Positions 6,843-62,676 of a stretch of 64,000 bases of DNA are shown here, in pieces. Source of the stretch: a virus; IMG/VR virus record IMGVR_UViG_3300006752_006525, positions 33,320-97,319 of that record. One strand, written 5' to 3'. The notes under the pieces were generated by a model. That model searched no databases, was not told the DNA's origin, and saw nothing but the letters and a program-made list of their open reading frames with translations. A program made the translations under genes and the position numbers. Every line of letters starts with the position of its first letter. Within the stretch, counting starts at the first letter, position 1.

Positions 6843-6854
6843 TAGGAGATTTGC

Positions 6855-8888: not shown

Positions 8889-8906
8889 TACTTTTCCCTT
8901 AATTTA

Positions 8907-8914
8907 GATAAATA
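8907..8914 (+). promoter_or_regulatory. T4-type late promoter (GATAAATA)
   Basis: GATAAATA followed by TACATAAC, 75 bases before the fibre gene at 8989. The leader is longer than for other late genes and carries TAGGAGATATAA just before the ATG. Confidence 0.55.
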
Positions 8915-8988
8915 TACATAACGTTTAGCTCTTATGGCTGGATGTTATCGATAACACGCAAAAAATACGTATTATATAGGAGATATAA

Positions 8989-11900
8989 ATGGCTGACATT
9001 AAGAACTTTGGTATAAAGGGTCTATCGTCAGACGTCCAACTCGGTAAGGGTGGCGGTAAAGTCAAATATGATTCTAGTAATAACAGATTCGACCTCACGC
9101 AGTCGGATGGTTCAACACTAGAAAATTTAAGACTTGGCGCGATCACTGCAGGTGCATGGACGGCAACAGCAATTGGTACGCAATATGGTGGTTTAGGACT
9201 TGACGGTTCCTCTTCAACTGGTATTGCAACGTTCTCATCTGGTACGGCTAGTATTGGTACAATCGATCTAAGCGATTCAGGCTTAGTTGATGCATCTTCG
9301 CAACTTCCAGTTGCACAAGGTGGTACTGGTGCAAGTACAGCAGGTGGAGCAAGAACTAACTTAGGGTTAGGTTCAATTGCAACGCAAGACTCAAACAATG
9401 TTGCTATTACAGGTGGTGCTTTAGATAGCACCGTCATCGGCGGTAGTACGGCGGCGGCAGGTAGTTTCACAACTATTAATGCTTCCGGTGCAATCACAGG
9501 TAACTTAACAGGTACAGCAGATGATGCTGATGGCCTATCAAGTGCTGTTACAGTTGGTCTTTCAGGAGACGCAACAGGTACAGCAACTTTTCAAGATGCT
9601 GGTGATACCGCAACAATTTCCACAACTTTAGCCACTGTTAACAGTGATGTAGGATCATATGGTAGTTCAACTGCTATTCCTGTACTCACAGTTAATGCTA
9701 AAGGTTTAGTTACAGCAGTAAGTACTGCTAGTATCTCAACAAGTTGGACAATTAGCGATGGCTCAAACACTTCTTCAATTGACGGTGGCGATACTTTAAC
9801 GGTATCAGGTACTGCAAACGAAGTAGATGTTGTTGTAAGCGGCGACTCATTAACAATCGGTTTACCTAACGATGTAACAATAGGTAACAACTTGACAGTA
9901 ACTGGTTCATTCCTTTCGGATGACATTACAGCGGCACAGGTAAGTGTTGCAGGTGATGCAGTTATTACAGGTAACTTAACAGTACAAGGAACTCAAACAA
10001 CAGTTAATTCGACAACAGTTGAAACTGCTGATGCAATTTTCCGTGTAAACAGTAATGGTACAACAGGTACTGACGTAGGTTTCGAAGCCAACGTTGGTGG
10101 CACTGCAAAGCAAATTGTTTATACAGGTGCTGGTAGTAAGTGGAGTGTAGGCTCCGAAACTTTTGTAGCGGCAACGTTCGAAGGTGATGTAACTGGTGAT
10201 GTAACTGGTGATGTAACAGGTAATGTTACAGGTAACTTAACTGGTGATGTAACTGGTGATGTAACTGGTGATGTAACTGGTAATGCAGATACAGCAACAA
10301 CTTTAGCGAATGCTAGAACAATAACAATAGACGGTGATGTAGATGCAACTGCTACTGCTTTTGATGGTAGTCAGAACATTACATTAACAACTACACTTGA
10401 TAACACAGGTGTTACAGCGGCTAGTTATGGTTCTGCTTCACTAGTTCCAGTATTAACTATTGATGCAAAAGGACGAGTAACATCTGCTAGTACAGCGGCT
10501 ATTACAACTTCTTTCACATTAGCAGGTGATACAGGTACGCAACTTGTTGAAGGTGGAGACACAGCAACAATAGCAGGTGGTACTAACATCACTACAGTAG
10601 CAAGTGCAACTGATACTTTAACAGTTAATCTAGATCCAAATATTAGTTTAACAAACGTTACTACATCAGGTGGCATTTTCACTGATGACATCTACGAGCA
10701 AACTACTAATGCAGGTATTACTTTTGGACATGACGTCAATGGTGGTGCGGCAACATTTAGTGGTACAGTAACTGGTGGTACATTAACTGACGGCACATTA
10801 AGTGCTTCAAGTGGTGCAATCACAGGTGCTACAACAATCACTGCAAGTGGTGCAATCACTGGTGGTAGTTTAACAGACGGTACTGCTACATTAAGTAGTG
10901 GTGCATTAACAGGTGCAACTAACGGTACATTTAGTGGTACAGTAACTGGTGGTACATTAACTGATGGCACATTAAGTGCAAGTTCAGGTGCTATTACAGG
11001 TGCTACAAATATCACAGCAAGTGGTACTGTTCAGTATGGTTCATTAAGTGATGGTTCAATCACAGTTACTGGTTTTGTCGATGAAGACAACATGGCTAGT
11101 GACAGTGCAACACTTATCCCAACGCAACAATCTGTTAAAGCATACGTCGACGCAGTTGCAACAGCGGCTGACTTAGACTTCCAAGGTGATGACGCAACTG
11201 CTTTAAGTATTGATCTTGATAGTGAAGTACTTACAATCGCAGGTGGAACTGGTCTAACAACAGCAGGTAGTGGTAACACTCTTACTGTTAACTTAGACAA
11301 CACAGCAGTAAGTGCTGGATCATATGGTAGTTCAACTGCTATTCCAACATTTACAGTTGATGCACAAGGACGTATTACAAATGCCTCTACAGCGGCAATT
11401 AGTACTTCTTGGACATTAAGTGATGGTTCCAATACACAAACTATCGATGGTGGTGATACTTTAACAGTATCAGGTACTACTGGCGAAGTTGATGTAGCGG
11501 TTAGTGCAACAGATACATTAACAATTGGTTTACCAAGCGATGTAACAATCGGTAATGACTTAACAGTTACTAACGACTTAACAGTATCAGGTACACTTAA
11601 CTCGGATGATATTACATCTGCAACAGTTAGTGTGTCAGGTGATGCAGTTATTTCTGGTAACTTAACAGTTAACGGTACACAAACTATTGTTAATTCAACA
11701 ACAGTTCAAACAGAAGATGCTATCTTCAGAACAAACAGTGGCGGTGCTAATACTGATGCTGGTTTTGAAGCAAACACAGCAAGTGGTGTAAAACAAATTC
11801 TTTACACAGCGGCTGGTACAGAATGGGACTTCGGTTCTGAGAATGTAAAAGCAAGTACGTTTGAAGGTAACTTAACAGGTGACGTAACAGGTGACACAAC

Positions 11901-12618
11901 AGGTGCTCACAATGGTACAGTTGGTGCAACAACACCAGCAACTGGTGCATTTACTACAATTAATGCTTCAGGTACAATTACTGGTGATGTAACTGGTGAT
12001 TTAACTGGTGACGTAACTGGTGATGTAACAGGTGATGTAACTGGTGATTTAACTGGTGATGTTACAGGTAGCATCAGTGGTGCAACTGGTACGTTTACAG
12101 GCGCAGTAAGTTTTGGTACATTAACAGATTCAGGTGAGAGCATTGCAATCACTAAGTTTGTTGATGAAGCAGATGGCATTGGCAACAACGACAATGACAC
12201 TACTATTCCAACTTCAGCGGCAGTTGTTGATTATGTTGCAACAAATGGTGGTGACGGACTATTACTTAGACAAGCATTGACATCAGGTAGTGCAACTATC
12301 GATACAAGTGCTATGCCTAACATTAGTAGCAGAACTTACTATGCACAAAAAATTGTAATTAAGATTGGAACAGCATTTAGTGGCGGTTCTTTCAACCATA
12401 TTCTTGTTAAAGAGAATGGTGGTAGTGGAACAGTATTAGTAGCGGCTGATGACGCAGATGCGGCAACAGCAGGTACTTACATCATCGAGTTAGATGGTGA
12501 TGCGGCACTTACAAAGAATGCGGCTGTACAAGTACAGTTCATGCAGGCAGACAGTAGCACAGCGGCTACAACTACTGCAGGTTCAGGTACAATCTCAGTA
12601 CATTACAACTATGTCTAA
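8989..12618 (+). CDS. Repetitive tail fibre protein, 1,209 aa
   Basis: A Thr/Gly/Ser/Asp-rich fibre. It has three copies of the Y-G-S-x5-P-x-x-T-V-x-A-x-G-R-V/I-T motif also seen in the 1,275-aa fibre. Two arrays of the pentapeptide G-D-V-T-G lie near residues 399-432 and 998-1028. An internal duplication of about 105-115 residues is encoded by 9742-10058 and 11407-11748. A short segment around residue 710 (STLIPTQQSVKAYVD-type) is common in marine phage fibres. The C-terminal 120 residues are less repetitive and may form the tip. It ends at a strong terminator. Confidence 0.85.
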   Translation: MADIKNFGIKGLSSDVQLGKGGGKVKYDSSNNRFDLTQSDGSTLENLRLGAITAGAWTATAIGTQYGGLGLDGSSSTGIATFSSGTASIGTIDLSDSGLVDASSQLPVAQGGTGASTAGGARTNLGLGSIATQDSNNVAITGGALDSTVIGGSTAAAGSFTTINASGAITGNLTGTADDADGLSSAVTVGLSGDATGTATFQDAGDTATISTTLATVNSDVGSYGSSTAIPVLTVNAKGLVTAVSTASISTSWTISDGSNTSSIDGGDTLTVSGTANEVDVVVSGDSLTIGLPNDVTIGNNLTVTGSFLSDDITAAQVSVAGDAVITGNLTVQGTQTTVNSTTVETADAIFRVNSNGTTGTDVGFEANVGGTAKQIVYTGAGSKWSVGSETFVAATFEGDVTGDVTGDVTGNVTGNLTGDVTGDVTGDVTGNADTATTLANARTITIDGDVDATATAFDGSQNITLTTTLDNTGVTAASYGSASLVPVLTIDAKGRVTSASTAAITTSFTLAGDTGTQLVEGGDTATIAGGTNITTVASATDTLTVNLDPNISLTNVTTSGGIFTDDIYEQTTNAGITFGHDVNGGAATFSGTVTGGTLTDGTLSASSGAITGATTITASGAITGGSLTDGTATLSSGALTGATNGTFSGTVTGGTLTDGTLSASSGAITGATNITASGTVQYGSLSDGSITVTGFVDEDNMASDSATLIPTQQSVKAYVDAVATAADLDFQGDDATALSIDLDSEVLTIAGGTGLTTAGSGNTLTVNLDNTAVSAGSYGSSTAIPTFTVDAQGRITNASTAAISTSWTLSDGSNTQTIDGGDTLTVSGTTGEVDVAVSATDTLTIGLPSDVTIGNDLTVTNDLTVSGTLNSDDITSATVSVSGDAVISGNLTVNGTQTIVNSTTVQTEDAIFRTNSGGANTDAGFEANTASGVKQILYTAAGTEWDFGSENVKASTFEGNLTGDVTGDTTGAHNGTVGATTPATGAFTTINASGTITGDVTGDLTGDVTGDVTGDVTGDLTGDVTGSISGATGTFTGAVSFGTLTDSGESIAITKFVDEADGIGNNDNDTTIPTSAAVVDYVATNGGDGLLLRQALTSGSATIDTSAMPNISSRTYYAQKIVIKIGTAFSGGSFNHILVKENGGSGTVLVAADDADAATAGTYIIELDGDAALTKNAAVQVQFMQADSSTAATTTAGSGTISVHYNYV
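9742..10058 (+). repeat. Internal duplication in fibre gene, copy 1
   Basis: Encodes a block beginning SWTISDGSN and ending near AIFRVNSNG. It is closely matched by the second copy at 11407-11748. Confidence 0.7.
10183..10284 (+). repeat. GGTGATGTAACT tandem array encoding G-D-V-T-G
   Basis: Near-perfect tandem 12-15 base units encode repeated GDVTG/GNVTG/GNLTG. A second array lies at 11982-12070. Such arrays can change length by slippage or recombination. Confidence 0.75.
11407..11748 (+). repeat. Internal duplication in fibre gene, copy 2
   Basis: Encodes SWTLSDGSN to AIFRTNSGG, matching the block at 9742-10058 with a small insertion (an extra LTVTNDLTV-like segment). Confidence 0.7.
11982..12070 (+). 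repeat. Second G-D-V-T-G coding tandem array
   Basis: Same repeat type as 10183-10284, with alternating GDVTG and GDLTG units. Confidence 0.75.
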
Positions 12619-48612: not shown

Positions 48613-48620
48613 TATTTATT
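48613..48620 (-). promoter_or_regulatory. Late-type promoter (AATAAATA)
   Basis: Minus-strand AATAAATA followed by CAGTAGAG, 26 bases before ATG 48586. Confidence 0.6.
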
Positions 48621-49284
48621 ACTTGTACCCTATTTGCATAAAACGAGTGTACACAGGCGTTTTTAAGGCGCCTACGTAACGTGTATTGCTTAATGGGTAC
48701 TTAGATTGCATATCATCTATGCTTTGACAAGTGTTTATATGGCCATTAAAATCAGGTGAGTCGTTGGTTTGCATGACTATTAGTTGCTCGTTACTAGCAG
48801 TTTCAAACCAACTTGTATCCATGTGTTCACAACTGGTATTGATAACTACGTTTGGTGTAACTTCTATCAGTTCGCCACCTGTTTGAAACTCCATATTATC
48901 TGTGGACAGCATCGATACATCAGCAACGACACCTTTATATTTCCAAGAATTTTCGACATATCGTCTATTGAATATTTCGCTTTTGCTAACTGCAACTGGA
49001 TCTACATCAAACCCATACAATCTTTCTATGCTAAACGAATCGTGAAGCAGTGGTACCAAACTACCAATCCAACAACCTAACAATGCCCATGTGGTGTTAG
49101 ATTCAATTGGTACCACTTGTAAACAGTTCTTTAACCATATTTTGCTTGCCATTTGTCCTAGACTGAATGCGTCTTTTGGGTACAGTTGACTATTAACTAA
49201 CTCTAGATAACTAGGCTTAAAAGAACCTAATTCATCACACCAATCTCTTACTTGGTCCCATGATTCTAGATTGACATTACTCAT
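48619..49284 (-). CDS. Class I SAM-dependent methyltransferase-like protein, 221 aa
   Basis: ALLGCWIGSLVPLL near residue 68 corresponds to SAM motif I and LYGFDVDPVAV near residue 90 to motif II with an acidic ribose ligand. VVINTSCEHMDTSWF near 147 fits motif IV-V. The substrate is unknown. It overlaps the giant repeat gene by eight bases, so it may modify the same product. Confidence 0.72.
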   Translation of the reverse strand: MSNVNLESWDQVRDWCDELGSFKPSYLELVNSQLYPKDAFSLGQMASKIWLKNCLQVVPIESNTTWALLGCWIGSLVPLLHDSFSIERLYGFDVDPVAVSKSEIFNRRYVENSWKYKGVVADVSMLSTDNMEFQTGGELIEVTPNVVINTSCEHMDTSWFETASNEQLIVMQTNDSPDFNGHINTCQSIDDMQSKYPLSNTRYVGALKTPVYTRFMQIGYK

Positions 49285-52200
49285 TGTCTTCTTTGTAACG
49301 GTTCTCTAGCCATTCGTAGTCGTTGATTTTAGCAAGTCTTACAGGCTTATTGATATTCTCTTTTGCATACACTGTGCCTGCTTGGGCTCCTGCTCTTGCG
49401 GCTTCTTTGAACTCAGCATCTTTAGCAGGGTTCATCCATTGAGATAGTCTTTGTATGCTGTCTTGATCTGCATTCACTGTTAACTTAACACACTCTCTGA
49501 ATGCACCACGCCATGTAGAGAACTCGTCTGTGTTAAATTTAGTTGTACTTGCAACTTCAGGCATTGCTTTGAACCTACTGCTAAGTCCTGTTGTAAAGTC
49601 TAGTCCCCAACTTGTAGCATCTAATACTTGTTTGGTGTTAAACAACTTGATACCACCATAACCATATTCAGTGCCTGTGATTGGATTACGTGCAAGCCAT
49701 ACATGTACAACTTCTTGGTCGTACACATCAGGTATGTACGAGAAGTCAAACTCATCGTCAACCATGCTGTCTGCATCAACTACCCAGAACATTGAGGTAC
49801 CTACTTGCTTTGCGGCTTCTTGGTGTGCTGAGAATATTCCGTCGATGTCTCTTACCCATAGTGCATTAGGGAACCTTGCTTGTAGACGCTTATATGCGTT
49901 CTCAGCATAGGTTTCGTGGTAGGAAAGGAACACAATATCATATGATTTATACGTGCTACCCGGCTCTCTAACATACTGTAGACCACGAATCTTGTTTAAG
50001 AATATCTGATCTGTTGTTAAACTAGCATAGTCTTTGTTAGTAGGCCACAGGCGTAATCCACCATAACTGTGTGTCTTTTGTGTATGCGGATTGAGTCTTT
50101 GCCATACGTGAACTTTGTCTATGTTGTTCAATTGTGGCATAAAACTATCATCAATTACTTCTGTGTACACATCAACATCTGTGTCTGTTGTCCAAGCAAA
50201 CGAATGCCCTTGCTCTTTGTGTTCATTAATTTGTTTGACAAACTCATCTCTGTCTGTAACAGTTGCCATATCAATAATAGGAAATGCTGTTGTTGTACTT
50301 GCTACAATATCTACTTGCTTTAAGTTGGCAAAACTGTTGTTTGTTACTTCTTTTATACCTAAGCCATGCTTACCTGCAAAGGTTCCTTTAGGTACAAGTC
50401 TAACGTTTCTGTATTCATCTTGTGCTGAACGGAACACATGAACTGTTTTCTCTTCCCATTTGTTTGGTGAGAACTTATAGTTCCAGCCTGGGAATCGTTT
50501 GGTAAACGGATCAATTAGCCAGTACATACTGCTTGTACACTTCTTATCAAACTGTTCTGCCTGCTTGATGTAATCGTGTGCAGGATCAATAACACACATT
50601 TCAAATATGCGTTGTGTACTACCTACTTCTTCTAACAGCAATTGATTCTCAATCTCACTGGTACGAAGCATTTCGTCTGTGAGCTGTTTGGTAGGCTTGA
50701 AACTAGTTGGGAACAATCTTAGACCACCATAGCCGGCTACTTTACCATCCTCTTCGTTAACACGTTGCCAAACATGTACACGATCGTGATTATCAAGTTT
50801 AGGAGAATAACTGCTGTAAATTAATGCACGTTTTTCTTCTACGTCTGGATCAATAACCCAAACATAGTCTGAGCTTTTGTGTTTTTCAAGTATCTCTTTG
50901 AGCTCACCAACTGTGACATCTGTAAATCTTTCCACTGGCCATAGACTTGGTTTTACATTGATAGTGTCTAGCACTTTCAAAGGTGTAAAACTGTTGTTCG
51001 CTATATCTTCTACAGACATGTCGTTTGGATATGTCTCTTTGGGGTATAGTCGCACATAGCGATTTTGGTTTGTGGTTTCAAACACATGCACAGTTGATTT
51101 GTCCCACTGATTTGGCAAGTAATGAAGTTCTTCCTCATTGATTTCTACACCTGGATCTATCACCCAATACATGCCTGCTTCAGTCTTAACATCAAAGTCA
51201 TTTAACTGCGTAACCATTGCTTCGCTGTCAGTGATTTGATATACTGGATAAGTGTTTAACACACTGCCTGGTTCTTCTATGTAACGTTGTGATTCACAAT
51301 CACTTGTTACTAATTGTTCTGTTGTTACTTCATCTAAATCAAAGTTTGTAGGCCATAAACGCAATCCAGCATAGTTAATAATGCTGTCTTCTTTGTCTAC
51401 ACACTGCCATACATGTACTTTGGTTGGATCAATTGGCATATTAAATAACTGTGGGTTGCCGTCCGGACTATATAGTTCTCCCATAACCGTACTCTTGGCT
51501 TGAACATCCGGGTCTACACTCCATATGTATTTGTGTCCTTGTTCTTTATAACTGTTCAACAATGAACGCATTTTTTCCACAGTTACATCTTCCCACTTAG
51601 TGAACTTGTGTACCAACCAACTTTCTTGTACACTGGCAACTTGGTCTATAAGTTTAATATCAGGGAAACTGTTATAACTTACATCGTCTGCTGTAAATCC
51701 ATGTTCACCATGGAATAAGTGTGTAGGATATAGTCTTACATTTCTGTATGTTCCTGCATTAGTACGGAATACATGAACTGTGTTTATATCCCACCTTGTT
51801 GGGTAGTAATCAAACTCAAAGCCAGGTTCTAGCACTGTGAATGGATCAACTGCCCAAAACATTTCTGCTTTACATTCTCCTGCAATGTTTTCCAACTGTG
51901 TAATAATATCTGTTGACATATCCAAGTTCCAAACAGGAATAGTTTTCTGTGTACAACCTGGTTCATCCATATACTCACAGTTTTTAACATCGTTCAAACG
52001 TAATTGGTCTGTGGTAATACCACCTACATTAAAATCTGTACTCCATAGTCTAACACCGGAGTTACTGAGAACTTCTCCTTTATCGTTTACACGTTGGTAA
52101 GCAACAACTTTGCCGGAGAAGTTTGTTGTTTGTTCTTGATTAAGTGTTTGCTTAAACACTTTGGTAATTGCTTTTACATCTGGATCTACGGTCCAAACAT

Positions 52201-54343
52201 AAGGCACACTGTTGTTCTTGTGTGATGCTAATATTTTACCTAGCTCTGCAACGTTAAACTTCTCAAATTCAACAACAGGATATGTAGGTAACTTACTTGC
52301 CACTGTAGGCATTTCTTTAAGGTATTGAAAACTGTTATAGCGATAGTCTTCTTCAGAATACATGTGAATACCTGGTTCAAATGTATCCTTAGGAACAAGT
52401 CTAACGTCTCTGTATTCTTGCTTTTCGTTTTGGAATACATGAACTTTGTCTATGTCATATTGCGTAGGGTAGTAATCAAAGTTAAAGTCCTCTGCAGGTT
52501 CTACACCTGGGTCCAGCACCCAATACATTTTTGTTTGTGTTTTATCATCAAACTCTTCCAATTGACTAATAAGACCTCTGTTTGTTTTCAAATGGTATAC
52601 AGGATATTCTCTCTGCGTACTAGCAGGTGCCATAACAAATTTAGGTCTGCCCTTACTGGTTTTATTTTTAGGGCATAACATGACTCCACCGTAATCATAT
52701 TGCTTGTTTGTAACAGGATTTAGTTTTTGCCACGTGTGATTTTTACCCGAGTCATTGATGTCTGGTAACCAATCAAAATCAAATGTGTCTAATACAACAA
52801 CATCAGGATCAACTACCCAGAACCAATCATGTTTAGTACGAGCTCTACCTTCACTTTCTGTAGAGAAAATTTCATACCTCACAAACTCAATATCACTGCT
52901 ACCCAAGTTACCTTGATACTTTGCACTGCTAGGATCATACTGCTTAGGAACTAACTTGGCACCACCACAGCGATTATCACTTACATTTTTAATCTCTAAC
53001 GGATACTTGTGGCTTAACTGCCCAGGTACTTTGAATATGTTTATGTAACGTTGATCGTATATAGCAGGAACGTACTTGATAAAGTTATCTACTAACTGAT
53101 ACTCTTCATCCACTAACCAAAATGCATCTGTGTGACTTTTACGTGCATACTTCTCATAGTTTGTTAAATCTTCATGCGGCACATAAAAGATATCATATCT
53201 CACAGGCACAATGTCAGTGTGCAGTTTCTGTTGTGTGATATCAAAGTTTTTATTGACTAGATATATACCACCAACACGTTCGTCCCACAGTTCTGTTACT
53301 TCAGGATCATATCTATCTTCTAATCCCCATTTGAATACATGTATATATTCTTGCTCGTGTTCTGCAGGTACATATAAAAGTTTACCGTTGAAGTCATATG
53401 TTCTATCAACTACCCAAAACCAATCAGTACCGGCACGTTCAGCATAATGATCAAATGTATCTGCATCAAACTTTCTGTTTGTGTAAAATACATCATAGTT
53501 CTCATCTTCTATAGGACAATCTTTGTGTATCTTTACAGGTGCATTTTTCCATTGCTTTGGTACTAAACGTATACCTCCCATTGCCATAGGATACTTTTCG
53601 TTTAATTGATACGGCATACGGAAACTGTGAACCATATCACGTTCAAAAGGATTAGGTACCCAGTCAACATCACCTGGATTTACTCTGTATTCTTTGTCAA
53701 TTAACCAAACGTACTCGTCATTAAACGTATCACGTTGGCTGTAGTTGTCTACATCTTCTACATATAATACAGGATAGTCAACTACATTGTTCAAGAAGCC
53801 ATGATACTTCATGTGTGCTTTCTTGTGATCTCTTGGGAATAATTTTACACCTCCCTCACTCTCAGGATACAAATGTTCTAGTTGACCTTTCAAATGGAAA
53901 CTGTGAATAAAGTTAGGCTCAAAATTACCTGGTGCCCAATCAATATCATCTGTTAATACATACTCAGGATCTACACACCATACATGACTTGCATGTGGGT
54001 TCTGATCAAAATACTTACCAGGTGTTTTCTTACGCAACACTTCAAATGTTCTTTTACATACAACTCTGTTGACTTGTTTTGTTTCTTCTTCTGGATTTTT
54101 GCTGGGTATTAATCTAAGACCACCATAGTTACCTCTGTCCCATTTGAATACATGCTCATACTTGTGATCATAATCATTTGGTCTGAATTCAAAGATGCCA
54201 TAGTCTGTTACTTCGATACTAGGCTCTACTAACCAAAACATTTTTGTACGTGGATTAATATCTTCGAGACTTTCTACCTGCTTTGCAACAGGCAAATCCT
54301 CTTTTAATTTTTCATTTGAACCTAGGTAATAAATGTCAAACAT
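49277..54343 (-). CDS. Giant repeat protein with glycosyltransferase-like modules, 1,688 aa
   Basis: I count 15 copies of a roughly 106-residue unit, from about residue 35 to 1520. Each has an [MFYH]-[FVY]-W-x-[VIL]-D-x core (for example MFWVVDADSMV), then F-x-Y-x-P, V-H-V-F/W and a G-G-x-R-L-x-P end. Copies 7-14 alternate in two types, giving a ~200-residue super-repeat. The last unit is the most complete: YDIVFLSYHE, an AHQEAAKQVG helix and the VVDAD core look like a GT-A glycosyltransferase with a D-x-D motif. Other copies mostly keep D-P. No signal peptide. It lies between sulfotransferase-like and methyltransferase genes. Enzyme, scaffold or virion protein are all possible. Confidence 0.75.
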   Translation of the reverse strand: MFDIYYLGSNEKLKEDLPVAKQVESLEDINPRTKMFWLVEPSIEVTDYGIFEFRPNDYDHKYEHVFKWDRGNYGGLRLIPSKNPEEETKQVNRVVCKRTFEVLRKKTPGKYFDQNPHASHVWCVDPEYVLTDDIDWAPGNFEPNFIHSFHLKGQLEHLYPESEGGVKLFPRDHKKAHMKYHGFLNNVVDYPVLYVEDVDNYSQRDTFNDEYVWLIDKEYRVNPGDVDWVPNPFERDMVHSFRMPYQLNEKYPMAMGGIRLVPKQWKNAPVKIHKDCPIEDENYDVFYTNRKFDADTFDHYAERAGTDWFWVVDRTYDFNGKLLYVPAEHEQEYIHVFKWGLEDRYDPEVTELWDERVGGIYLVNKNFDITQQKLHTDIVPVRYDIFYVPHEDLTNYEKYARKSHTDAFWLVDEEYQLVDNFIKYVPAIYDQRYINIFKVPGQLSHKYPLEIKNVSDNRCGGAKLVPKQYDPSSAKYQGNLGSSDIEFVRYEIFSTESEGRARTKHDWFWVVDPDVVVLDTFDFDWLPDINDSGKNHTWQKLNPVTNKQYDYGGVMLCPKNKTSKGRPKFVMAPASTQREYPVYHLKTNRGLISQLEEFDDKTQTKMYWVLDPGVEPAEDFNFDYYPTQYDIDKVHVFQNEKQEYRDVRLVPKDTFEPGIHMYSEEDYRYNSFQYLKEMPTVASKLPTYPVVEFEKFNVAELGKILASHKNNSVPYVWTVDPDVKAITKVFKQTLNQEQTTNFSGKVVAYQRVNDKGEVLSNSGVRLWSTDFNVGGITTDQLRLNDVKNCEYMDEPGCTQKTIPVWNLDMSTDIITQLENIAGECKAEMFWAVDPFTVLEPGFEFDYYPTRWDINTVHVFRTNAGTYRNVRLYPTHLFHGEHGFTADDVSYNSFPDIKLIDQVASVQESWLVHKFTKWEDVTVEKMRSLLNSYKEQGHKYIWSVDPDVQAKSTVMGELYSPDGNPQLFNMPIDPTKVHVWQCVDKEDSIINYAGLRLWPTNFDLDEVTTEQLVTSDCESQRYIEEPGSVLNTYPVYQITDSEAMVTQLNDFDVKTEAGMYWVIDPGVEINEEELHYLPNQWDKSTVHVFETTNQNRYVRLYPKETYPNDMSVEDIANNSFTPLKVLDTINVKPSLWPVERFTDVTVGELKEILEKHKSSDYVWVIDPDVEEKRALIYSSYSPKLDNHDRVHVWQRVNEEDGKVAGYGGLRLFPTSFKPTKQLTDEMLRTSEIENQLLLEEVGSTQRIFEMCVIDPAHDYIKQAEQFDKKCTSSMYWLIDPFTKRFPGWNYKFSPNKWEEKTVHVFRSAQDEYRNVRLVPKGTFAGKHGLGIKEVTNNSFANLKQVDIVASTTTAFPIIDMATVTDRDEFVKQINEHKEQGHSFAWTTDTDVDVYTEVIDDSFMPQLNNIDKVHVWQRLNPHTQKTHSYGGLRLWPTNKDYASLTTDQIFLNKIRGLQYVREPGSTYKSYDIVFLSYHETYAENAYKRLQARFPNALWVRDIDGIFSAHQEAAKQVGTSMFWVVDADSMVDDEFDFSYIPDVYDQEVVHVWLARNPITGTEYGYGGIKLFNTKQVLDATSWGLDFTTGLSSRFKAMPEVASTTKFNTDEFSTWRGAFRECVKLTVNADQDSIQRLSQWMNPAKDAEFKEAARAGAQAGTVYAKENINKPVRLAKINDYEWLENRYKEDNE

Positions 54344-54626
54344 CTTTGCTTCTCGTTTCCTGTATGTGTTTTAATTTGTCTATCCTTTCCTCAATCATGC
54401 TAAAAAGTTGTTCGTTTTCCATTTGTGTTTTGGCAACTGTCTCAACTAAATTATGTAACTTTTGCTGTTGATCGGTAATGTATTGCTTAATGTTTCTAAG
54501 TTTTCTATTTACTATATTTACTTCATATAGGCTACAATGAACCGAGTGTTCTGGCAGTACAGCACTGCATTCCAAACATCTGCCCTCTAATATTTTTTGT
54601 ACTGTGTCTAATTCTTCTTCAGTCAC
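54336..54626 (-). CDS. Small zinc-site/coiled-coil protein, 96 aa
   Basis: CLECSAVLPEHSVHC near residues 17-31 is a CxxC-(x)-HxxxC-type possible zinc site; the rest is a long charged coiled coil. It overlaps both neighbours by eight bases. It may link proteins; function unknown. Confidence 0.65.
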   Translation of the reverse strand: MTEEELDTVQKILEGRCLECSAVLPEHSVHCSLYEVNIVNRKLRNIKQYITDQQQKLHNLVETVAKTQMENEQLFSMIEERIDKLKHIQETRSKDV

Positions 54627-55329
54627 TGATCCAATTCCATAACTTCAAATCTTCTGAGCATAATTGTTCACATACTGTATTCACTGTGTTTGTTTGATGT
54701 TGTGCAGGAAAGCCTTCTGGGAAATGTTCATACTTTGTAGACTCGTTGGCCCTCACTATTTCACGTTCTTGCATACCTAAATGATCATGAATTAATTGCA
54801 CTACATCATCACCATCTCCCCACTTGGTAAATGAAAACGTATCGTCAGTCCATTCCATGTATTCCATGAAGTCGAGTACTCTAGCATTCATAACCCAATT
54901 ACGTTTACCAAACCTTTTAGTTGCTATATACTCTTTTCTAATAGGTATTTGTCCTATTTGAGGATGTATGTGAGAGTCTACTGCACTTGGTAAATGTGTA
55001 AACAATGCAACATTACTAACACTGTATCCATAATCTCTGCGAATGTTAGCAGTAAAATGATCTATTTGACTGCGGAGTCTATGGTAAGGATTTCTAAGAA
55101 AGATATGAAAATGCTGTGGTTGTGTTAAATCCTCATAATCCTTATCTGGCATCACTGCCCACTCACCTGGAATATTTCTCGATGCACTGGTACTACCGCC
55201 TTTGGCAAATGTCACCATAAAGTTGCCGTCATTGTGGTATATGTTACCCCAATATGGATCTTCATGATCAGGAAACTCCAGTTGTCTGTGTTCCCAAGCC
55301 AAATAAGAGTATGCGTCTTGCATCTTCAT
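54619..55329 (-). CDS. Sulfotransferase-like protein, 236 aa
   Basis: ATG 55329 is preferred, with GGAGGTTAGC upstream; a longer frame from 55386 lies inside the previous gene. VTFAKGGSTSASR near residue 42 resembles the 5'-phosphosulfate-binding loop. FLRNPYHRLRSQIDHF near residue 78 matches the R-x-P...R-L-x-S 3'-phosphate motif of PAPS-dependent sulfotransferases. It is one of two tandem copies; it may sulfate a glycan. Confidence 0.7.
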   Translation of the reverse strand: MKMQDAYSYLAWEHRQLEFPDHEDPYWGNIYHNDGNFMVTFAKGGSTSASRNIPGEWAVMPDKDYEDLTQPQHFHIFLRNPYHRLRSQIDHFTANIRRDYGYSVSNVALFTHLPSAVDSHIHPQIGQIPIRKEYIATKRFGKRNWVMNARVLDFMEYMEWTDDTFSFTKWGDGDDVVQLIHDHLGMQEREIVRANESTKYEHFPEGFPAQHQTNTVNTVCEQLCSEDLKLWNWISD

Positions 55330-56108
55330 GTTGCTAACCTCCATAGTATAGTGTCTTCTTTGTAAATTGTTTGTTGACCACACCATGGTGCAAAGTCAGG
55401 TATTTCTTCAGCAACAAACGTTGTCCTATCGCCGTACCAGTTATCTTTTCTATACACATCTTTAAGAACTGTAGGATCTATACCTACACATTCTAAGAGA
55501 AAATTATTTACAGCATTATCAGTTTTCATTTTATAAAATTTATAATGATCGGGTCCTGCAAGTATACTGTCAACTACATTTAAGTCCTTGAGAATAAACT
55601 TCCAATCCACAAGTTCATGCAAAGACTGATGATGGAAGTCGCCTAGCTCTTCGCACCTAGACAGTATTGTTCTGTATAGCTCACTGTTTTTGCGGAAAGG
55701 TATTAAACAATGTTGAGGTGCAGAATGAATATTAATAACTTTATGAAAGTGTGAAAAGAATTCATGCGGTACTGGCCCTAGGCCCCACATGGTTTTTATT
55801 TCTCTGTGAGCATGGTTTATTACACTGGCAAGTCTTTCTACAGGTTCTCTGACCAATGCACAAAATGTTTGTGGTTGTTTTAAGTCACAGTCTGGATTCC
55901 TAGGAACTGAACCAAGCTCATCCATATTCAGTGTGCCTAGTATACTTGTTTGACATGCTTTTGTTATACGAACTATCCACTTATCCAGTATAGGATCTAT
56001 GTCTAGTGGTCTGTCGCTGTAAAGTATTTCTGATTCTCGCGGACTACTGCGATAATTTGATACCATGTGATAAACAGTGGTAAACTCTTGTTGCAGTTGA
56101 ACAGACAT
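55326..56108 (-). CDS. Sulfotransferase-like protein, 260 aa
   Basis: Overlaps the next gene by four bases. WIVRITKACQTSILGTL near residue 44 fits the PAPS loop and FCALVREPVERLASVINHA near residue 83 the 3'-phosphate motif. Divergent from its downstream neighbour but with the same motif order, so an old duplication is likely. It starts right after the carbamoyltransferase stop. Confidence 0.68.
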   Translation of the reverse strand: MSVQLQQEFTTVYHMVSNYRSSPRESEILYSDRPLDIDPILDKWIVRITKACQTSILGTLNMDELGSVPRNPDCDLKQPQTFCALVREPVERLASVINHAHREIKTMWGLGPVPHEFFSHFHKVINIHSAPQHCLIPFRKNSELYRTILSRCEELGDFHHQSLHELVDWKFILKDLNVVDSILAGPDHYKFYKMKTDNAVNNFLLECVGIDPTVLKDVYRKDNWYGDRTTFVAEEIPDFAPWCGQQTIYKEDTILWRLAT

Positions 56109-57629
56109 TTAATCGTCTCTGCAATGAACTGGTACTCCATAGTGTTTAGAAAAGTCAATTGCTTCTTGTTCTGTGTTCACTATAGGTTGTCCTTTGATAT
56201 TCAACGATGTGTTTACAATCATTGGACACCCAGTTGCATCATAAAAACGACTCAACAACCTAAACAACTCAGGGTGATCGAGTTGATTAACTGTTTGTAC
56301 TCTGCTGGTTCCATCAGCATGTACAATAGCAGGAAACTCATCTGGCTTTTTGCATTTAGCAGTGTATTGCATGTAAGGAGCACTCAACATGTCTCCCGGC
56401 ATTTCAAAATAATCTCTGGCATGATGTTGTAAAATCATAGGAGCAAAAGGTCTAAACTTTTGACGCTTCTTGATTACATTCATACGGTCTTTGATCTCTG
56501 CACCACGTGGGTCAGCACATAAACTTCTGTTGCCTAATGCTCTAGGTCCATACTCTGCACGACCATTAGCAATACCAAATATTTCGCCATTTAATAGACT
56601 GTTTAATGCTTTGTCTACAGGGTACTTACCTGGAATCTCTGTGCCTAAATAGGGTGTAAATCGTTCTAGTCTGCGACCTGTATGCTTGTGATAATGTAAT
56701 GCGGCGGCTCCTAAACTGCTACCTGCATCACCTGGGTTAGGCATAATGTGTACTTTATCAAAGTATTCAAACAGTCTACTGTTTGCAACACAATTTAATG
56801 CTACACCACCCATGTATACCAAGTTCTTAGAACCTGTTAACTTCTTTGCTTTCTCTGCATAAGCAAATATCTTATTCTCTACTACTGCTTGGGCACTTGC
56901 GGCTAAGTCATAGTCTAAACTGTAATGACCCCATTCATCTTTATTCTCTTGCAGATGCCTACCAGTAACTTTCTGTTCTAATCCACGTTGTAGATTGCGT
57001 TTGGTTTTGAGACTATTCTTGCCTTTGAACAATCTATTTTCTAACCTTTCTGTGTATGCGGCTTGCCCATAAGCGGCCATACCCATTAATATATACTCAT
57101 CTTCCATAGGCTTTAATCCTACGTGAGATGTCATAGCACTATAAAACAATCCTACTGAATTAGGAAACCAAACACTGTGCTTCTTCTTTAATTTATTGTT
57201 TTGCCAATGCCAAATAGTTGCTGTGTCAAACTCGCCTATGGCATCTATAACCATAACAGCACATTCGTCAAATTCGCTAGTCATAACACCAGCGGCGGCA
57301 TGTGTTTCATGATGCCAATACTCTTTGATAGGTATGCCTGCTAGTTGTGGATAGAACTCTTTGATCCACTGCTTGGTGTCTAATTCTTTTAGTGCAGACC
57401 AATTGCCTGCGTAGATGTTTCTAGCACGTTTTGCCCATGACTTTTCATGTAGTGCTATGACATCAGGTCGCCCATAACCTAATGCCTCAGAAACTATATT
57501 CTGATTGAGGAAAGCATCGTTCTTTATTCTGCTGTATCTTTCTGCATGACCTGCAAATAAAATATTACCGTTGTCTATAACACTGATCGAAGCATCATGA
57601 AACTGGCTACTAATACCAAGTACTTTCAT
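56109..57629 (-). CDS. NodU/TobZ-family carbamoyltransferase, 506 aa
   Basis: The N-terminal part starts MKVLGISSQFHDASISVI, and a central VYMGGVALNCVANSRLFE and NPGDAGSSLGAAAL form the nucleotide-binding (YrdC/Kae1-like ASKHA) half. The C-terminal GRAEYGPRALGNRSLCADPR, FRPFAPMIL and PMIVNTSLN are hallmark carbamoyltransferase segments. Enzymes of this family add carbamoyl groups to hydroxyls of sugars or antibiotics using carbamoyl phosphate and ATP. Here the acceptor is probably a sugar made by the surrounding genes. Confidence 0.93.
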   Translation of the reverse strand: MKVLGISSQFHDASISVIDNGNILFAGHAERYSRIKNDAFLNQNIVSEALGYGRPDVIALHEKSWAKRARNIYAGNWSALKELDTKQWIKEFYPQLAGIPIKEYWHHETHAAAGVMTSEFDECAVMVIDAIGEFDTATIWHWQNNKLKKKHSVWFPNSVGLFYSAMTSHVGLKPMEDEYILMGMAAYGQAAYTERLENRLFKGKNSLKTKRNLQRGLEQKVTGRHLQENKDEWGHYSLDYDLAASAQAVVENKIFAYAEKAKKLTGSKNLVYMGGVALNCVANSRLFEYFDKVHIMPNPGDAGSSLGAAALHYHKHTGRRLERFTPYLGTEIPGKYPVDKALNSLLNGEIFGIANGRAEYGPRALGNRSLCADPRGAEIKDRMNVIKKRQKFRPFAPMILQHHARDYFEMPGDMLSAPYMQYTAKCKKPDEFPAIVHADGTSRVQTVNQLDHPELFRLLSRFYDATGCPMIVNTSLNIKGQPIVNTEQEAIDFSKHYGVPVHCRDD

Positions 57630-57869: not shown

Positions 57870-58760
57870 CTAATTATAAATAATCCGGTTGCCGGATCTT
57901 AGCATTCTTGTATATTCTTTTTGATTTTCTTCTGTAAGTGTGCCTGCATTGTATTCTGGTAATTGATATAATTGTTGTGTTTCAAAGCAATGCTCTGCTA
58001 ATTCTCCAGCGGCTCTGAACTGCGTTATGTGCCCTTGGTGCGATAGATCTCTGGCTAAAAAATTACTGATATCTATTTCATCAAGCGATACAGTTTGTAT
58101 GTTATATTTCACATAACGATTAATACTGTGATCATCAAAGTAACTCCACAACCTAACAGGTATACCCCAAGCATTAAAATGATCAACTAAACTGTTGATT
58201 GTATCTCCAAGATGTAGTTCTTGTGTTGTATCGTGTTCTGATATCTGTTGTTCTTCAGTTGTCATTGTGGTTATCCAAGTATCATGCGATACTCCCTCAA
58301 TGTCTGTGTATCCTTGTTGGAGAGTTGATGTGGTCTTGCGACTTATATCAGGTATTTGAATTACAACTATGTCAGGCTTTGCAAAATACTTACACCATTC
58401 CTTTGCTACAAGACTAACTGCTAATATGCCATGGCTTTCACAGCCTAAGTTAACAAAGTCTTTGTTGACCAAACGACCTAACTCAGCATGCCATGTGTCT
58501 TCTGCTTTAACACCTACACCATATGTGTGACTGCAACCTAATGCTAAACCAAAGTTCTTGGTATAACTTTCAAAAGGCTTTGAGCGAAAACCATGATTAT
58601 TATTAACATAACTGATGTCAGCATTTTTATAATATGAATGTAACCTGTCATAGTTTTCTTCAAATGCTTCTTTGCTGTCTGTGCTGATAAACTCTTTGGT
58701 TACATTGATCTTGTCCAGCATTTTAGGAAACTGATCAGGAAAGTATGCTAAAGTAGCCAT
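57870..58760 (-). CDS. SGNH/GDSL hydrolase-like protein, 296 aa
   Basis: LALGCSHTYGVG near residue 72 is the G-x-S block I with the catalytic Ser. NLGCESHG near 104 fits block II. DLSHQGH near 237 has a D-x-x-H arrangement like block V. SGNH enzymes remove or transfer acyl groups on sugars and lipids. It overlaps the upstream glycosyltransferase-like gene by 13 bases. Two more SGNH-like genes lie at 61.8-63.4 kb. Confidence 0.72.
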   Translation of the reverse strand: MATLAYFPDQFPKMLDKINVTKEFISTDSKEAFEENYDRLHSYYKNADISYVNNNHGFRSKPFESYTKNFGLALGCSHTYGVGVKAEDTWHAELGRLVNKDFVNLGCESHGILAVSLVAKEWCKYFAKPDIVVIQIPDISRKTTSTLQQGYTDIEGVSHDTWITTMTTEEQQISEHDTTQELHLGDTINSLVDHFNAWGIPVRLWSYFDDHSINRYVKYNIQTVSLDEIDISNFLARDLSHQGHITQFRAAGELAEHCFETQQLYQLPEYNAGTLTEENQKEYTRMLRSGNRIIYN

Positions 58761-59992
58761 GGTACTCCTTGACTGTTGATGTCTTCGCCAGTGATTGCTG
58801 ATTGTTGATTTGCTATCTGTTGCTTACGATACCAACTAAAGTCTGTTACAAAGTCTATTTGCCCTGCATAACCTGAGTACTCTTTGTCTTTGAATATCAA
58901 TTTACGTCCTGGCAAACCAGATTCTGGATATTTCATAATAAAGTCTGGTATAAATCCTCTTTGTTTAATAACATTCTGTATGTGATTTTTAGCAGAGTCT
59001 GTCATGTTTCTCAGCATAAACTTGCAATCTCTTTCTTTGCCTACAAATTGTTTTTCATTAAATTCGTGTAGTTGTTCACAAAGTCCTTTGACTCTGTCCT
59101 CATAATGTCTATACTGATCCCAATCAAAGTTGATAAATTGATCCAGTGGCCACCCACCCATTAACTCTTGGAAAGCGGCATTGGCATTTCTTGCACCCAA
59201 TATAACCATAGGCTTACCATAAAACACAGGACGCCACGTTTTTTCTGTGCTGAAACGTGCTCTGATAGTGCTTTCCATAACAACATCTATTAAACCATTT
59301 GTGTATTCCTGTGGCCAAACACCATATTGATCTACTGTGCCGTTACCAGCAGTGCGAACCATGTTGCTTTTGTCCCAATGCTGAAAGTTTGGATATTGTT
59401 GTTTTGTGTTGTTCAGTATTACTTTACCCAATGGCATAACACCTTGCTCTGCCATTATGTCTAATGCTCTGTGTCTGTGATACCAGCATTCACCTATCAT
59501 TGTGGTCCACAAATGTGTAGGAGTGTTGTTTGCTATATCGTTTGCTACACTGGCTTGAAATTCATTTAATTCATTATTCCTACTGACTTCTAGATAGTTG
59601 TGTGCTGTTAACCACATGAAATATGAAGGCCAACACACTACGTCTACACGAGCTATAAAGTATTCCAATTGATGTATGGTTGGTTCAGTGTCTTCCCATT
59701 TAATGGATAACCTATCCATGTCGTCAGCACCATATACATTCCTGTGAGCACCAGTAACAAATGTAATAAATGCCTGTGCTTGTTCTAATGCATCACGCAA
59801 CTCCAACACACTGTCTTCATTGATACAACTGGCAAATGTCCATTCTTCAGGACCCCAGTGAATTATATGAGTGTTGTTGAACTCACCGTTTTGTATTTGT
59901 TTGATAATATCAACAAATTCTACTTGATCATACCATTGATAGATATGAACAGTGTTAGATATATTGTTGGTATAGTGCGTGAAAGTACTCAT
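58748..59992 (-). CDS. Glycosyltransferase-like protein, 414 aa
   Basis: The C-terminal half has FSTEKTWRPVFYGKPMVILGARN, an S/T-E-K-T...P-x-x-I-L-G pattern shared with the proteins at 59955 and 63383. This resembles the donor site of GT-B enzymes that carry an E-K motif. The N-terminal half is Trp/His-rich. No membrane segment. It overlaps the upstream paralogue by 38 bases. Confidence 0.6.
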   Translation of the reverse strand: MSTFTHYTNNISNTVHIYQWYDQVEFVDIIKQIQNGEFNNTHIIHWGPEEWTFASCINEDSVLELRDALEQAQAFITFVTGAHRNVYGADDMDRLSIKWEDTEPTIHQLEYFIARVDVVCWPSYFMWLTAHNYLEVSRNNELNEFQASVANDIANNTPTHLWTTMIGECWYHRHRALDIMAEQGVMPLGKVILNNTKQQYPNFQHWDKSNMVRTAGNGTVDQYGVWPQEYTNGLIDVVMESTIRARFSTEKTWRPVFYGKPMVILGARNANAAFQELMGGWPLDQFINFDWDQYRHYEDRVKGLCEQLHEFNEKQFVGKERDCKFMLRNMTDSAKNHIQNVIKQRGFIPDFIMKYPESGLPGRKLIFKDKEYSGYAGQIDFVTDFSWYRKQQIANQQSAITGEDINSQGVPWLL

Positions 59993-61097
59993 GTTCCTTA
60001 ACCTTTTCCGATGTGTGTGCTACTAATCGTATGTAATGATCCATTTGATAATTGTAAATATCTTTAGGAACACTTCTCTGTTCTCGGACTATTTGTAAAA
60101 ACTTGTTGCAATTATTCCATGCCACATGACTTACTTTTCTATATAGATCGTTGAGATTCTTGTCTTCCAGTGTTCTCAAATTGTCCATAATGGCTTCTAT
60201 GCGTTTCTGTGCATCTGGTTCACTGTCAAAACTGTAATCAAAAATGTCATCATAGAGATAAAAACCCATTTCTGTTAATTTTTTATGTATGCCTGGCGCA
60301 CCTAGTATGAGGAAAGGCTTTTGTGCCATTATAGGCTCTATGGTTTTTTCTGTTATCCAAGGATGATCTAATGTGGTTTCTGTTATTACTTGACAGAATG
60401 CTTGACTGTAAATTGGGTGTACTTGATATGAATACCATGTGGTGTCGTCAATCAAGTTAGGATGAACCCTTGTTGCTGTGCCTAAATGATGATTTTTGAA
60501 GTCTGTTAACCATTTTGGAGGGGTGTTTACGTCTGGTTTAGGCAGTGGCATTGGCGTTGTTGTGTCATCGAAGTTTTCAAACTCATAGCCAGAACTCTTA
60601 TTCCATGTATAAACATTGTTATCCAAGAAGCCTTGCTCTGCTAGATTATCCATCAATTGACATCTATGTGGTCTAGGCTTACCGTTATACACAATAAAAG
60701 GATAAGTGATACCCATTTCTAAGTCTTCATATGGGAAGTCCTCGCACTCTGGTACAAGTTTTCTAGCAGTGAATCTCATTGCACTGTCATATAAAAAGTA
60801 TTCGGGCCAACTGATGATTTTAGCAAACTGAGACATTTCGTTCCACTGCTGATCAATTGTGAGTTTGTCTATACTGCTCACAATAGTCAACATGAGGTCT
60901 CTGTCGCCTAACATTTTAACTATCTCATGTACTTTGTCTACTTCGGAATCTTTGGGGAAACGCAATCCTTCATAAGCATCAATCCATATAACATGACTGC
61001 TTTGATCTATGTTAGCAAGTATTGCAATTATATCTTGTTTATATTTGATCCAGGGTGCTTCATCTGGATTTACGTAAATTATATTGTTTTTAGCCAT
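59955..61097 (-). CDS. Glycosyltransferase-like protein, 380 aa
   Basis: ATG 61097 (MAKNNIIYVNPDE) is chosen because an upstream ATG at 61142 lies before the predicted late transcription start. WITEKTIEPIMAQKPFLILGAPG near residue 280 and GFYLYDDIFDYSFD match the same family as 58748 and 63383. FIVYNGKPRPHRCQLMDNLAEQG near residue 160 fits the linker to the second GT-B domain. The sugar and acceptor are unknown. Confidence 0.62.
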   Translation of the reverse strand: MAKNNIIYVNPDEAPWIKYKQDIIAILANIDQSSHVIWIDAYEGLRFPKDSEVDKVHEIVKMLGDRDLMLTIVSSIDKLTIDQQWNEMSQFAKIISWPEYFLYDSAMRFTARKLVPECEDFPYEDLEMGITYPFIVYNGKPRPHRCQLMDNLAEQGFLDNNVYTWNKSSGYEFENFDDTTTPMPLPKPDVNTPPKWLTDFKNHHLGTATRVHPNLIDDTTWYSYQVHPIYSQAFCQVITETTLDHPWITEKTIEPIMAQKPFLILGAPGIHKKLTEMGFYLYDDIFDYSFDSEPDAQKRIEAIMDNLRTLEDKNLNDLYRKVSHVAWNNCNKFLQIVREQRSVPKDIYNYQMDHYIRLVAHTSEKVKEHEYFHALYQQYI

Positions 61098-61121
61098 ATA
61101 CTCTATCTTTTGTGTGTAATA

Positions 61122-61137
61122 ACAGTTAAATAACTGT
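61122..61137. promoter_or_regulatory. Inverted repeat between divergent genes
   Basis: ACAGTTA-AA-TAACTGT, seven perfect base pairs per arm, next to the predicted start of the minus transcript and 33 bases before the plus gene at 61170. It could be an operator or an mRNA hairpin. Confidence 0.4.
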
Positions 61138-61143
61138 ATCAAC

Positions 61144-61169: not shown

Positions 61170-61793
61170 ATGAGTTTTTCCGCTGTAAATGAATTCGAAA
61201 AACAACTTGCAGACTGGTGGGGTGCTCCTTTTGCTGTAGCAACTGATTGTTGTACCCATGCTATAGAGCTGTGTTTGCGTTATAAACGTGCTACAAGCAT
61301 TCACACTGTGCCTAAACACACTTATATCAGTATTCCCATGACATTGGAAAAAGTAGACTTACCTTGGGATTGGACCGACGAAGAGTGGTTTAGTTTTTAT
61401 GAAATTGGCACCTCAGGTATCATTGACAGTGCTGTATACTGGAAAAAAGGCGGTTACATTGATTTAAGTCTACAGTGTTTGAGTTTTCAATTCAAAAAGC
61501 CTCTCAACTTAGGCAGAGGTGGTGCTATATTGTGTGGCACAGAAAAAGAATACAGTGATCTCAAAGCAATGGCATATGACGGCAGAGATCAGAACAGTAA
61601 TACATATTGGGGTGATCAACGCATCAGCACAATGGGTTATCACTATTACATGACACCCGAAACTGCTGTAATGGGCATGGAAAGACTGCCCAGCAGTCAT
61701 AAACGTGCTACCAAGCAATGGAGTTGGCAAGATTACCCAGACTGTTCACAAATGCCTGTGTTTCGCAAAAAGGGCATGATGTATTATGTCTAG
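61170..61793 (+). CDS. Short DegT/DnrJ/EryC1-like sugar aminotransferase, 207 aa
   Basis: FEKQLADWWGAPFAVATDCCTHAIELCL near residues 8-36 matches the start of DegT-type PLP enzymes (cofactor loop T-x-x-x-H/A-A). FQFKKPLNLGRGGAIL near residue 108 aligns with the catalytic Lys segment (F-x-x-x-K-x-x-x-x-G-x-G-G). The usual C-terminal domain (family about 370 residues) is missing, yet the frame ends cleanly. It could be a minimal active form, a degenerate copy or a binding protein. It shares eight bases with the next gene. Confidence 0.75.
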   Translation: MSFSAVNEFEKQLADWWGAPFAVATDCCTHAIELCLRYKRATSIHTVPKHTYISIPMTLEKVDLPWDWTDEEWFSFYEIGTSGIIDSAVYWKKGGYIDLSLQCLSFQFKKPLNLGRGGAILCGTEKEYSDLKAMAYDGRDQNSNTYWGDQRISTMGYHYYMTPETAVMGMERLPSSHKRATKQWSWQDYPDCSQMPVFRKKGMMYYV

Positions 61794-62676
61794 AACCTTT
61801 ATATTTGGTTGTTCATACACACAATACATGTGGCCCACATGGGCAGATATCATACAATTATCAGAAAGAGAACGTGGCAACCAATGCTGGAACTTTGGCA
61901 TGTGTGGTGTCAGCAATTCAGGCATAGCAACCAACATAAACATTGCAGACAGTGTGTTCAACTTCACAGAAGCAGATCGCATAATGATATTGTGGACCAG
62001 TTTGCACAGAATAGACCGTTTAGAAACCTATTGGGACTGCCAGTTAGAGCGAAATGTAATGCAATGGGAGATGCGTGGCAGTATATTTGGCAACGATAAA
62101 CCTGAACACATACAGCAATGGATCAAACACGAATGGCAAATGGAAACAGACATCATGAACAACTGGACCACTATGCGTTCAATTGATCGTGCATATCAGC
62201 CTGCTTTCCAAGGACATATCCGAGAACCACTGCTAGAACGTGATGTACAGCATTTTGATCTTAATCCTGAAATTGCCATGTGGTATAGAAGTTATTATAC
62301 AAAAAATAAACACAATTTATTTGACATAGACAAGAAATCAATGTGGAACAACGGCGAACTAGATGACTATGCTGTGCGTGATCCACATCCATGCCCCGTA
62401 AGCCACCTTAAATACGCAGAAAGCACAGGTATACCCATCACTGATTCAGTAAAACAATTAATACATAATTGGCAAGATGAATTTATTGCAAAAGGCTATT
62501 CAGCAGACCAATTACAAGAAATTATTCCATGGAGAGACTGGGAGATGCCCAGAGTAAACTGTATTACCACAGAATTAAATGAAAAATGGGGAATAGAATC
62601 AGGTGCAGAAATCGAAAACTATGTGTGGCTATGGAAGCAGGTCAGCCCTAGCACCATTTTGAATAAAATCATATAA
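61786..62676 (+). CDS. SGNH-hydrolase-like protein, 296 aa
   Basis: FIFGCSYTQY at residues 5-14 is block I with the catalytic Ser, NFGMCGVSNSGIA near residue 37 fits block II, and RDPHPCPVSHLKYAE near residue 202 supplies a D-x-H pair. It is a clear relative in layout of the 57870 protein. Its 3' end overlaps the convergent gene at 62629 by 48 bases. Confidence 0.68.
   Translation: MSRTFIFGCSYTQYMWPTWADIIQLSERERGNQCWNFGMCGVSNSGIATNINIADSVFNFTEADRIMILWTSLHRIDRLETYWDCQLERNVMQWEMRGSIFGNDKPEHIQQWIKHEWQMETDIMNNWTTMRSIDRAYQPAFQGHIREPLLERDVQHFDLNPEIAMWYRSYYTKNKHNLFDIDKKSMWNNGELDDYAVRDPHPCPVSHLKYAESTGIPITDSVKQLIHNWQDEFIAKGYSADQLQEIIPWRDWEMPRVNCITTELNEKWGIESGAEIENYVWLWKQVSPSTILNKII

Follow-up and report, generated by a model that had tools for sequence, protein, structure and literature searches.

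Organization of the locus

The DNA under study (the window, 64,000 nucleotides) forms the final 64 kb of a virus record of 97 kb. On its minus strand an uninterrupted frame (49277–54343, stop codon included) specifies a protein of 1688 amino acids composed of 15 modules; we refer to module 15 as T and to modules 1–14 as the arm. The gene lies in a cluster of sugar-enzyme genes, away from the tail-fibre genes at 3015–12618.

The neighbouring genes are on the same strand. An O-carbamoyltransferase gene (56109–57629, minus) specifies a product which matches Carbam_trans N and C and has as its nearest solved relatives NovN, GdmN and TobZ, enzymes which transfer carbamoyl to hydroxyls of sugars and similar compounds. 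Between it and the modular gene are two overlapping frames (54619–56108, minus) which appear by eye to be sulfotransferase-like and were not seen in more distant relatives. Downstream, and overlapping the modular gene by 8 nt, is the gene for a 221-residue protein (48619–49284, minus) with class I methyltransferase-like motifs recognized by eye; no profile or PDB match supported this assignment. Based upon the loci with enough flanking sequence, which partly share lineages, the O-carbamoyltransferase gene occurs within 3.5 kb upstream at 36/36 multi-module loci versus 0/27 loci with a single-domain relative of T, and the gene for the 221-residue protein within 1.5 kb downstream at 37/38 versus 1/23.

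Several other genes were noted. At 58748–61142 the window codes for two adjacent proteins with an E-K-T...P...I-L-G motif, members of a family (g59955) which has up to three copies per locus, no Pfam or PHROG matches and, by eye, a possible likeness to fucosyltransferases. A 207-residue piece of a DegT/DnrJ aminotransferase followed by a 296-residue frame (61170–62676) forms a pair which recurs in L010, L024 and L033. The product of 46265–46870 matches the PHROG for DNA endonuclease V [7e-10], yet by eye it resembles a 2-oxoglutarate/Fe(II) oxygenase. Upstream of the carbamoyltransferase gene in the cluster of a relative (L004, 96–5622) is a row of several frames which by eye are radical-SAM/SPASM-like.

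Modules of the 1688-residue protein

Modules 1–5 (52874–54343, minus) make up the N-terminal set common to complete multi-module orthologs, modules 2–5 each forming one clade. They are followed by module 6 (52637–52903, minus), which carries the sequence DPD, and by modules 7–14, which are four A/B pairs: A1 (module 7, 52292–52627) and B1 (module 8, 51950–52303), A2 (module 9, 51629–51961) and B2 (module 10, 51260–51640), A3 (module 11, 50951–51271) and B3 (module 12, 50615–50962), and A4 (module 13, 50294–50626) and B4 (module 14, 49952–50305), all minus, with DPD in B1, B2 and B3 and DTD in B4. T itself (49280–49942, minus; about residues 1468–1688) has single-domain homologs and bears the sequence D-A-D at residues 1523–1525 (49769–49777, minus).

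A motif scan located 15 copies, their Trp falling between residues 37 and 1520 at a mean spacing of 105.9 residues, and a profile built from the modules recovered 15/15 copies in the window protein; L003 and L009, two views of one other contig, gave the same 15. Both methods thus agree with the preliminary description, which had reported 15 copies about 106 residues apart without naming the strand. The shared core that it gave as W-x-V-D-P exists, but this strict pattern has to be widened to W-x-[hydrophobic]-[D/E]-x. An assembly artefact was considered and rejected because the same architecture recurs in contigs of other metagenomes, at 100% identity in 3300010149 and, gapless, at 97% over modules 8–15 in 3300025653, and because relatives with other module counts exist.

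Since the first profile had come from the modules themselves, homology was examined independently with a profile from 39 single-domain relatives which included no repeat proteins. Against residues 1–1445 of the window protein it matched 13 stretches with a total of 212 bits, the maximum in 1600 composition-preserving shuffles of eight such proteins being 10.4 bits. The repeats are homologous. Individually modules 2–5 are weak, while module 6 is the strongest [i-E 2.9e-16]. The modules align with the DxD-bearing half of the domain only (profile positions about 45–130), the matches ending at about position 105–152.

The alternation of two subtypes in copies 7–14, also proposed earlier, is borne out: identities are 33–44% among A modules, 30–43% among B modules and 14–25% between A and B, and over 15 orthologous proteins A and B are each monophyletic (support 0.84 and 0.97). 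A tree of the 168 modules of these 15 proteins has single clades for T, A, B, a further type (C) and each of positions 2 to 6, with support of 0.84 to 1.00. That positions 2–6 and T each form one clade points to their being old, orthologous positions. No clade confined to A or B copies of the window was found in this tree.

Predicted structure and GT-A motifs

An AlphaFold2 model of A4-B4-T (modules 13–15 and the tail), based upon an alignment of 50 sequences, has a mean pLDDT of 91.9 and a pTM of 0.81. Foldseek returned 26 PDB matches to the model as a whole at E<=1e-3 [best 9.5e-6], and the best are nearly all GT-A or nucleotide-sugar enzymes, including chondroitin polymerase, lysyl hydroxylase LH3, mimivirus R699, SunS and ArnC. 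With individual PDB entries the TM-scores are low, TMt not exceeding ~0.40, and the relation to GT-A enzymes is therefore distant. The model of modules 1–5 [pLDDT 86.9, pTM 0.70] gave no significant PDB match when folded alone, the weak top matches being mostly GT-A enzymes; for these modules a GT-A origin therefore rests more on homology to T than on fold.

Profile libraries added little. The window protein reached no Pfam family threshold and did not match Glycos_transf_2 (PF00535), a family weakly matched by 6/50 members of the alignment [best 6e-4] under its curated cut-off; no PHROG family reached threshold [best 0.043]. A Pfam match of one region to Uma2 [7e-5], below the cut-off of that family, and PDB sequence matches to citrate synthase, enolase and DRS2 [0.25 or worse] were dismissed as chance.

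Judging from the alignments and models, the GT-A-like domain is complete in T and reduced to one half in each arm module. None of modules 1–14, in which the DxD half alone aligns, showed all eight strands and six helices of the GT-A core; they lack the C-terminal part bearing the acceptor-side helix and the presumed catalytic base. This agrees with the duplication of a GT-A-like half domain put forward in the preliminary description.

The motifs common to the GT-A core, against which we compared T, are the DxD, the G-loop, the xED and a C-terminal His (PMC7185993). T reads D-A/G-D in 35/35 orthologs, some of them nearly identical, and the DxD is also present in the single-domain relatives. A YGYGG sequence, invariant in 50 sequences, resembles a G-loop and, from sequence alignment alone, is in a plausible place, so that T probably has one. 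At what may be the xED position T has N-T-D before a predicted helix; the Asp is at least 90% conserved in phages and is replaced in the Streptomyces and Rhodobacter homologs. The 50-sequence alignment contains no conserved C-terminal His after the helix in T; this residue has been lost in several GT-A families (PMC7185993).

It had been claimed that the DxD is confined to the last copy. This is incorrect, for the motif is also found in modules 6, 8, 10, 12 and 14; what does hold for module 15 alone is that both Asp are kept in 35/35 orthologs. The first Asp hardly varies from ortholog to ortholog at almost every position in the array; the N-terminal module frequently has Glu. The second is F, C, Y or H in nearly all A modules and variable elsewhere in the arm, except that it is kept in 27/35 last-B modules, where it is Asn or His in the other 8/35, and in 26/35 at position -4. 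Because most orthologs keep this DxD, the B modules and module 6 may not be inert.

Our preferred reading, which we hold to be moderately probable, is that the protein is a phage glycosyltransferase in which a single active site follows an arm of 14 truncated donor-binding halves, and which works in a carbamoylated-glycan pathway. One might instead suppose that several modules are active, the B modules and module 6 binding nucleotide-sugars in a multi-site, assembly-line glycosyltransferase. We regard this as unlikely: while their DxD, the frequency with which the second Asp is kept and the strong purifying selection on the arm (see below) would agree with it, every arm module lacks the acceptor-side helix and the presumed base, the profile matches break off well within the domain, and Asn or His stands in for the second Asp in some last-B modules.

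The GT-A-like modules might also form a glycan-binding fibre or decoration of the virion. The protein is long, repetitive and variable in copy number, like fibres and adhesins, and the pTM values of 0.70–0.81 suggest a fixed packing of modules; set against this are the fixed cassette with carbamoyl- and methyltransferase-like genes, the distance from the tail-fibre genes, a C-terminal domain which is intact and enzyme-like and has single-domain relatives, and the fact that no export signal was seen by eye. The idea of a structural role, already raised in the preliminary description, finds no support because the gene sits in a glycan-enzyme cluster, and we consider it very unlikely.

Relatives and variation in module number

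A scan of viral contigs yielded at least 583 relatives. Those in IMG/VR have 9–13, 15, 16 or 17 modules, a range from 9 to at least 17. Complete distinct proteins among the matches listed comprise 30 with one module, one each with two, four and eight, nine with 9, twelve with 10, five with 11, seven with 12, three with 13, and one each with 15, 16 and 17; these counts, made by profile with a loose filter, are possibly off by one because a divergent module was missed in some (L040, L042, L130). Copy number changes at two places. One is the A/B array, where 9-module proteins carry a single pair, L010 two pairs, the window protein four and L130 about five; the other lies between modules 5 and 6, where another set of phages has insertions of C modules, a type which groups near module 3.

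Single-domain members of the family, of ~230 residues, occur in many freshwater phages and are 44–49% identical to T in the viral contigs. Their genes are mostly directly preceded by one for a second paralog of ~330 residues (e.g. L073, 9015–9995), 25–33% identical to the modular protein, and the two products may work as a pair. Frames of ~340 residues like this paralog also lie far from the modular gene in G001–G003.

Outside the phages, homologs of T with ~30% identity are found on Streptomyces plasmids beside two annotated glycosyltransferases, and Rhodobacter also has one. A scan of genome contigs with the Streptomyces protein as query gave 20 actinomycete loci; with the terminal-domain alignment none was confirmed. 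On a plasmid of Rhodobacter sp. CZR27 (L089, 4980–5906) a distant homolog lies among genes for OmpA-family, ImcF-related and protein phosphatase 2C proteins, surroundings which resemble a type VI secretion locus. Three queries, namely the full protein, the terminal domain and a single-domain relative, were run against 50,697 phage records and gave no match, and none of the isolated phages in the searched collection encodes the domain.

Selection and possible recombination

Comparison of the window with L002 over modules 8–15 (gapless, 97% identical) gave dN 0.021 and dS 0.346, and omega was about 0.06 for B1, 0.04 for A2 and 0.01 for B2 versus 0.06 for T. These arm modules are as constrained as T and under purifying selection. 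Across modules 11–13 (50294–51271) the synonymous divergence drops from ~0.6 to ~0.02–0.1, a sign that this patch may have recombined between alleles which are diverged elsewhere; with dS so low the dN/dS ratios of these modules are uninformative.

These values bear upon the view that the arm arose neutrally by duplication and does nothing of its own beyond folding, the least probable of the alternatives in our judgement. Differences in copy number between relatives are what it would lead one to expect, but the dN/dS of arm modules is no higher than in the catalytic domain, modules 2–6 have been kept as orthologous positions over 15 proteins, and among carbamoyltransferase-linked forms those read from end to end contain about 9 modules or more.

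The phage and the proposed function

In the window is a gene for a T4-type DNA polymerase; the named proteins closest to it (42% identity) belong to jumbo phages of Sinorhizobium and Agrobacterium. Contigs carrying relatives of the modular gene reach 250 and 340 kb, and the source is therefore likely to be a large phage.

Phage glycosyltransferases are known to modify DNA (PMC12619734), and together with the T4-like polymerase in the same window this raises the question of whether the protein glycosylates modified bases of the phage's own DNA, in the manner of T4. Against such hypermodification, no member of the thymidylate-synthase/dCMP-hydroxymethylase family was found in the record of 97 kb, nor in longer relatives, three in number, of 122, 251 and 340 kb, all records which may be incomplete, and the relatives of the carbamoyltransferase act on small-molecule sugars. 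We find this no more credible than a role in the virion.

Returning to the enzyme with a single active site, T would transfer sugar from a nucleotide donor, a catalytic role which we infer from its fold and motifs. We likewise infer the role of the arm, including the "binding modules" of the preliminary description, and the nature of the product. The 14 modules would be non-catalytic and would position the acceptor glycan or partner enzymes; additional modules would make the arm longer or alter its specificity; and the glycan produced would be carbamoylated, perhaps methylated as well, and carried by the cell surface or the virion. A bolder proposal, and in our opinion quite an unlikely one, is that the A/B arm offers repeating sugar- or nucleotide-binding sites which hold the growing glycan, the number of pairs (1 to 5) setting the length or pattern of the product as a molecular ruler.

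With the preferred reading, the locus points to an uncharacterised glycan pathway in large aquatic phages which would involve glycosyl-, carbamoyl- and perhaps methyl-transfer, its target probably being the host surface or the virion.

Comparison with known systems

An architecture of tandem half-domains before one intact domain is not described in the literature and profile libraries which we searched, and Pfam and PHROG matches stay under threshold, in keeping with the earlier statement that no such family is on record. The closest proteins are the single-domain relatives (L046–L087) and Streptomyces WP_030978560.1, which share the whole terminal domain with its DxD, YGYGG and FREC motifs; they differ in consisting of one domain, with neither an arm nor, in phages (0/27), a carbamoyltransferase neighbour. 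Two proteins of uncultured Caudovirales phages in BFVD/UniProt, A0A6J5LK21 (804 residues) and A0A6J5L5L5 (1076 residues), agree in fold with the A-B-T query [about 1e-29; TMq 0.67 and 0.49, 20% identity] and are apparently, from their predicted structures, multi-module relatives deposited as uncharacterized.

Among solved enzymes, the GT2-type chondroitin polymerase of E. coli K4 (2z86/2z87) has in common with the modular protein the GT-A fold, the DxD and the presence of more than one GT-A domain per chain; it has two complete active domains, whereas the modular protein has one complete and fourteen half domains. LH3 (PLOD3) and mimivirus R699 likewise contain GT-A domains, and in LH3 the catalytic GT domain is joined by an accessory domain which is GT-like but not catalytic. 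Both differ from the modular protein in having a single accessory domain within another architecture, and their sequence similarity to it is undetectable. A precedent for non-catalytic GT-A modules is COSMC (C1GALT1C1), a GT-A relative without DxD and xED which acts as a scaffold or chaperone (PMC7185993), although this is a separate protein with a complete fold and no tandem repeats. The GT-A fold and accessory, non-catalytic GT-A domains were thus already known; new with respect to the sources searched is the long tandem array of half-domains, and the series of 1, 2, 4 and 9–17 modules provides a test of how an enzyme fold becomes a repeat scaffold.
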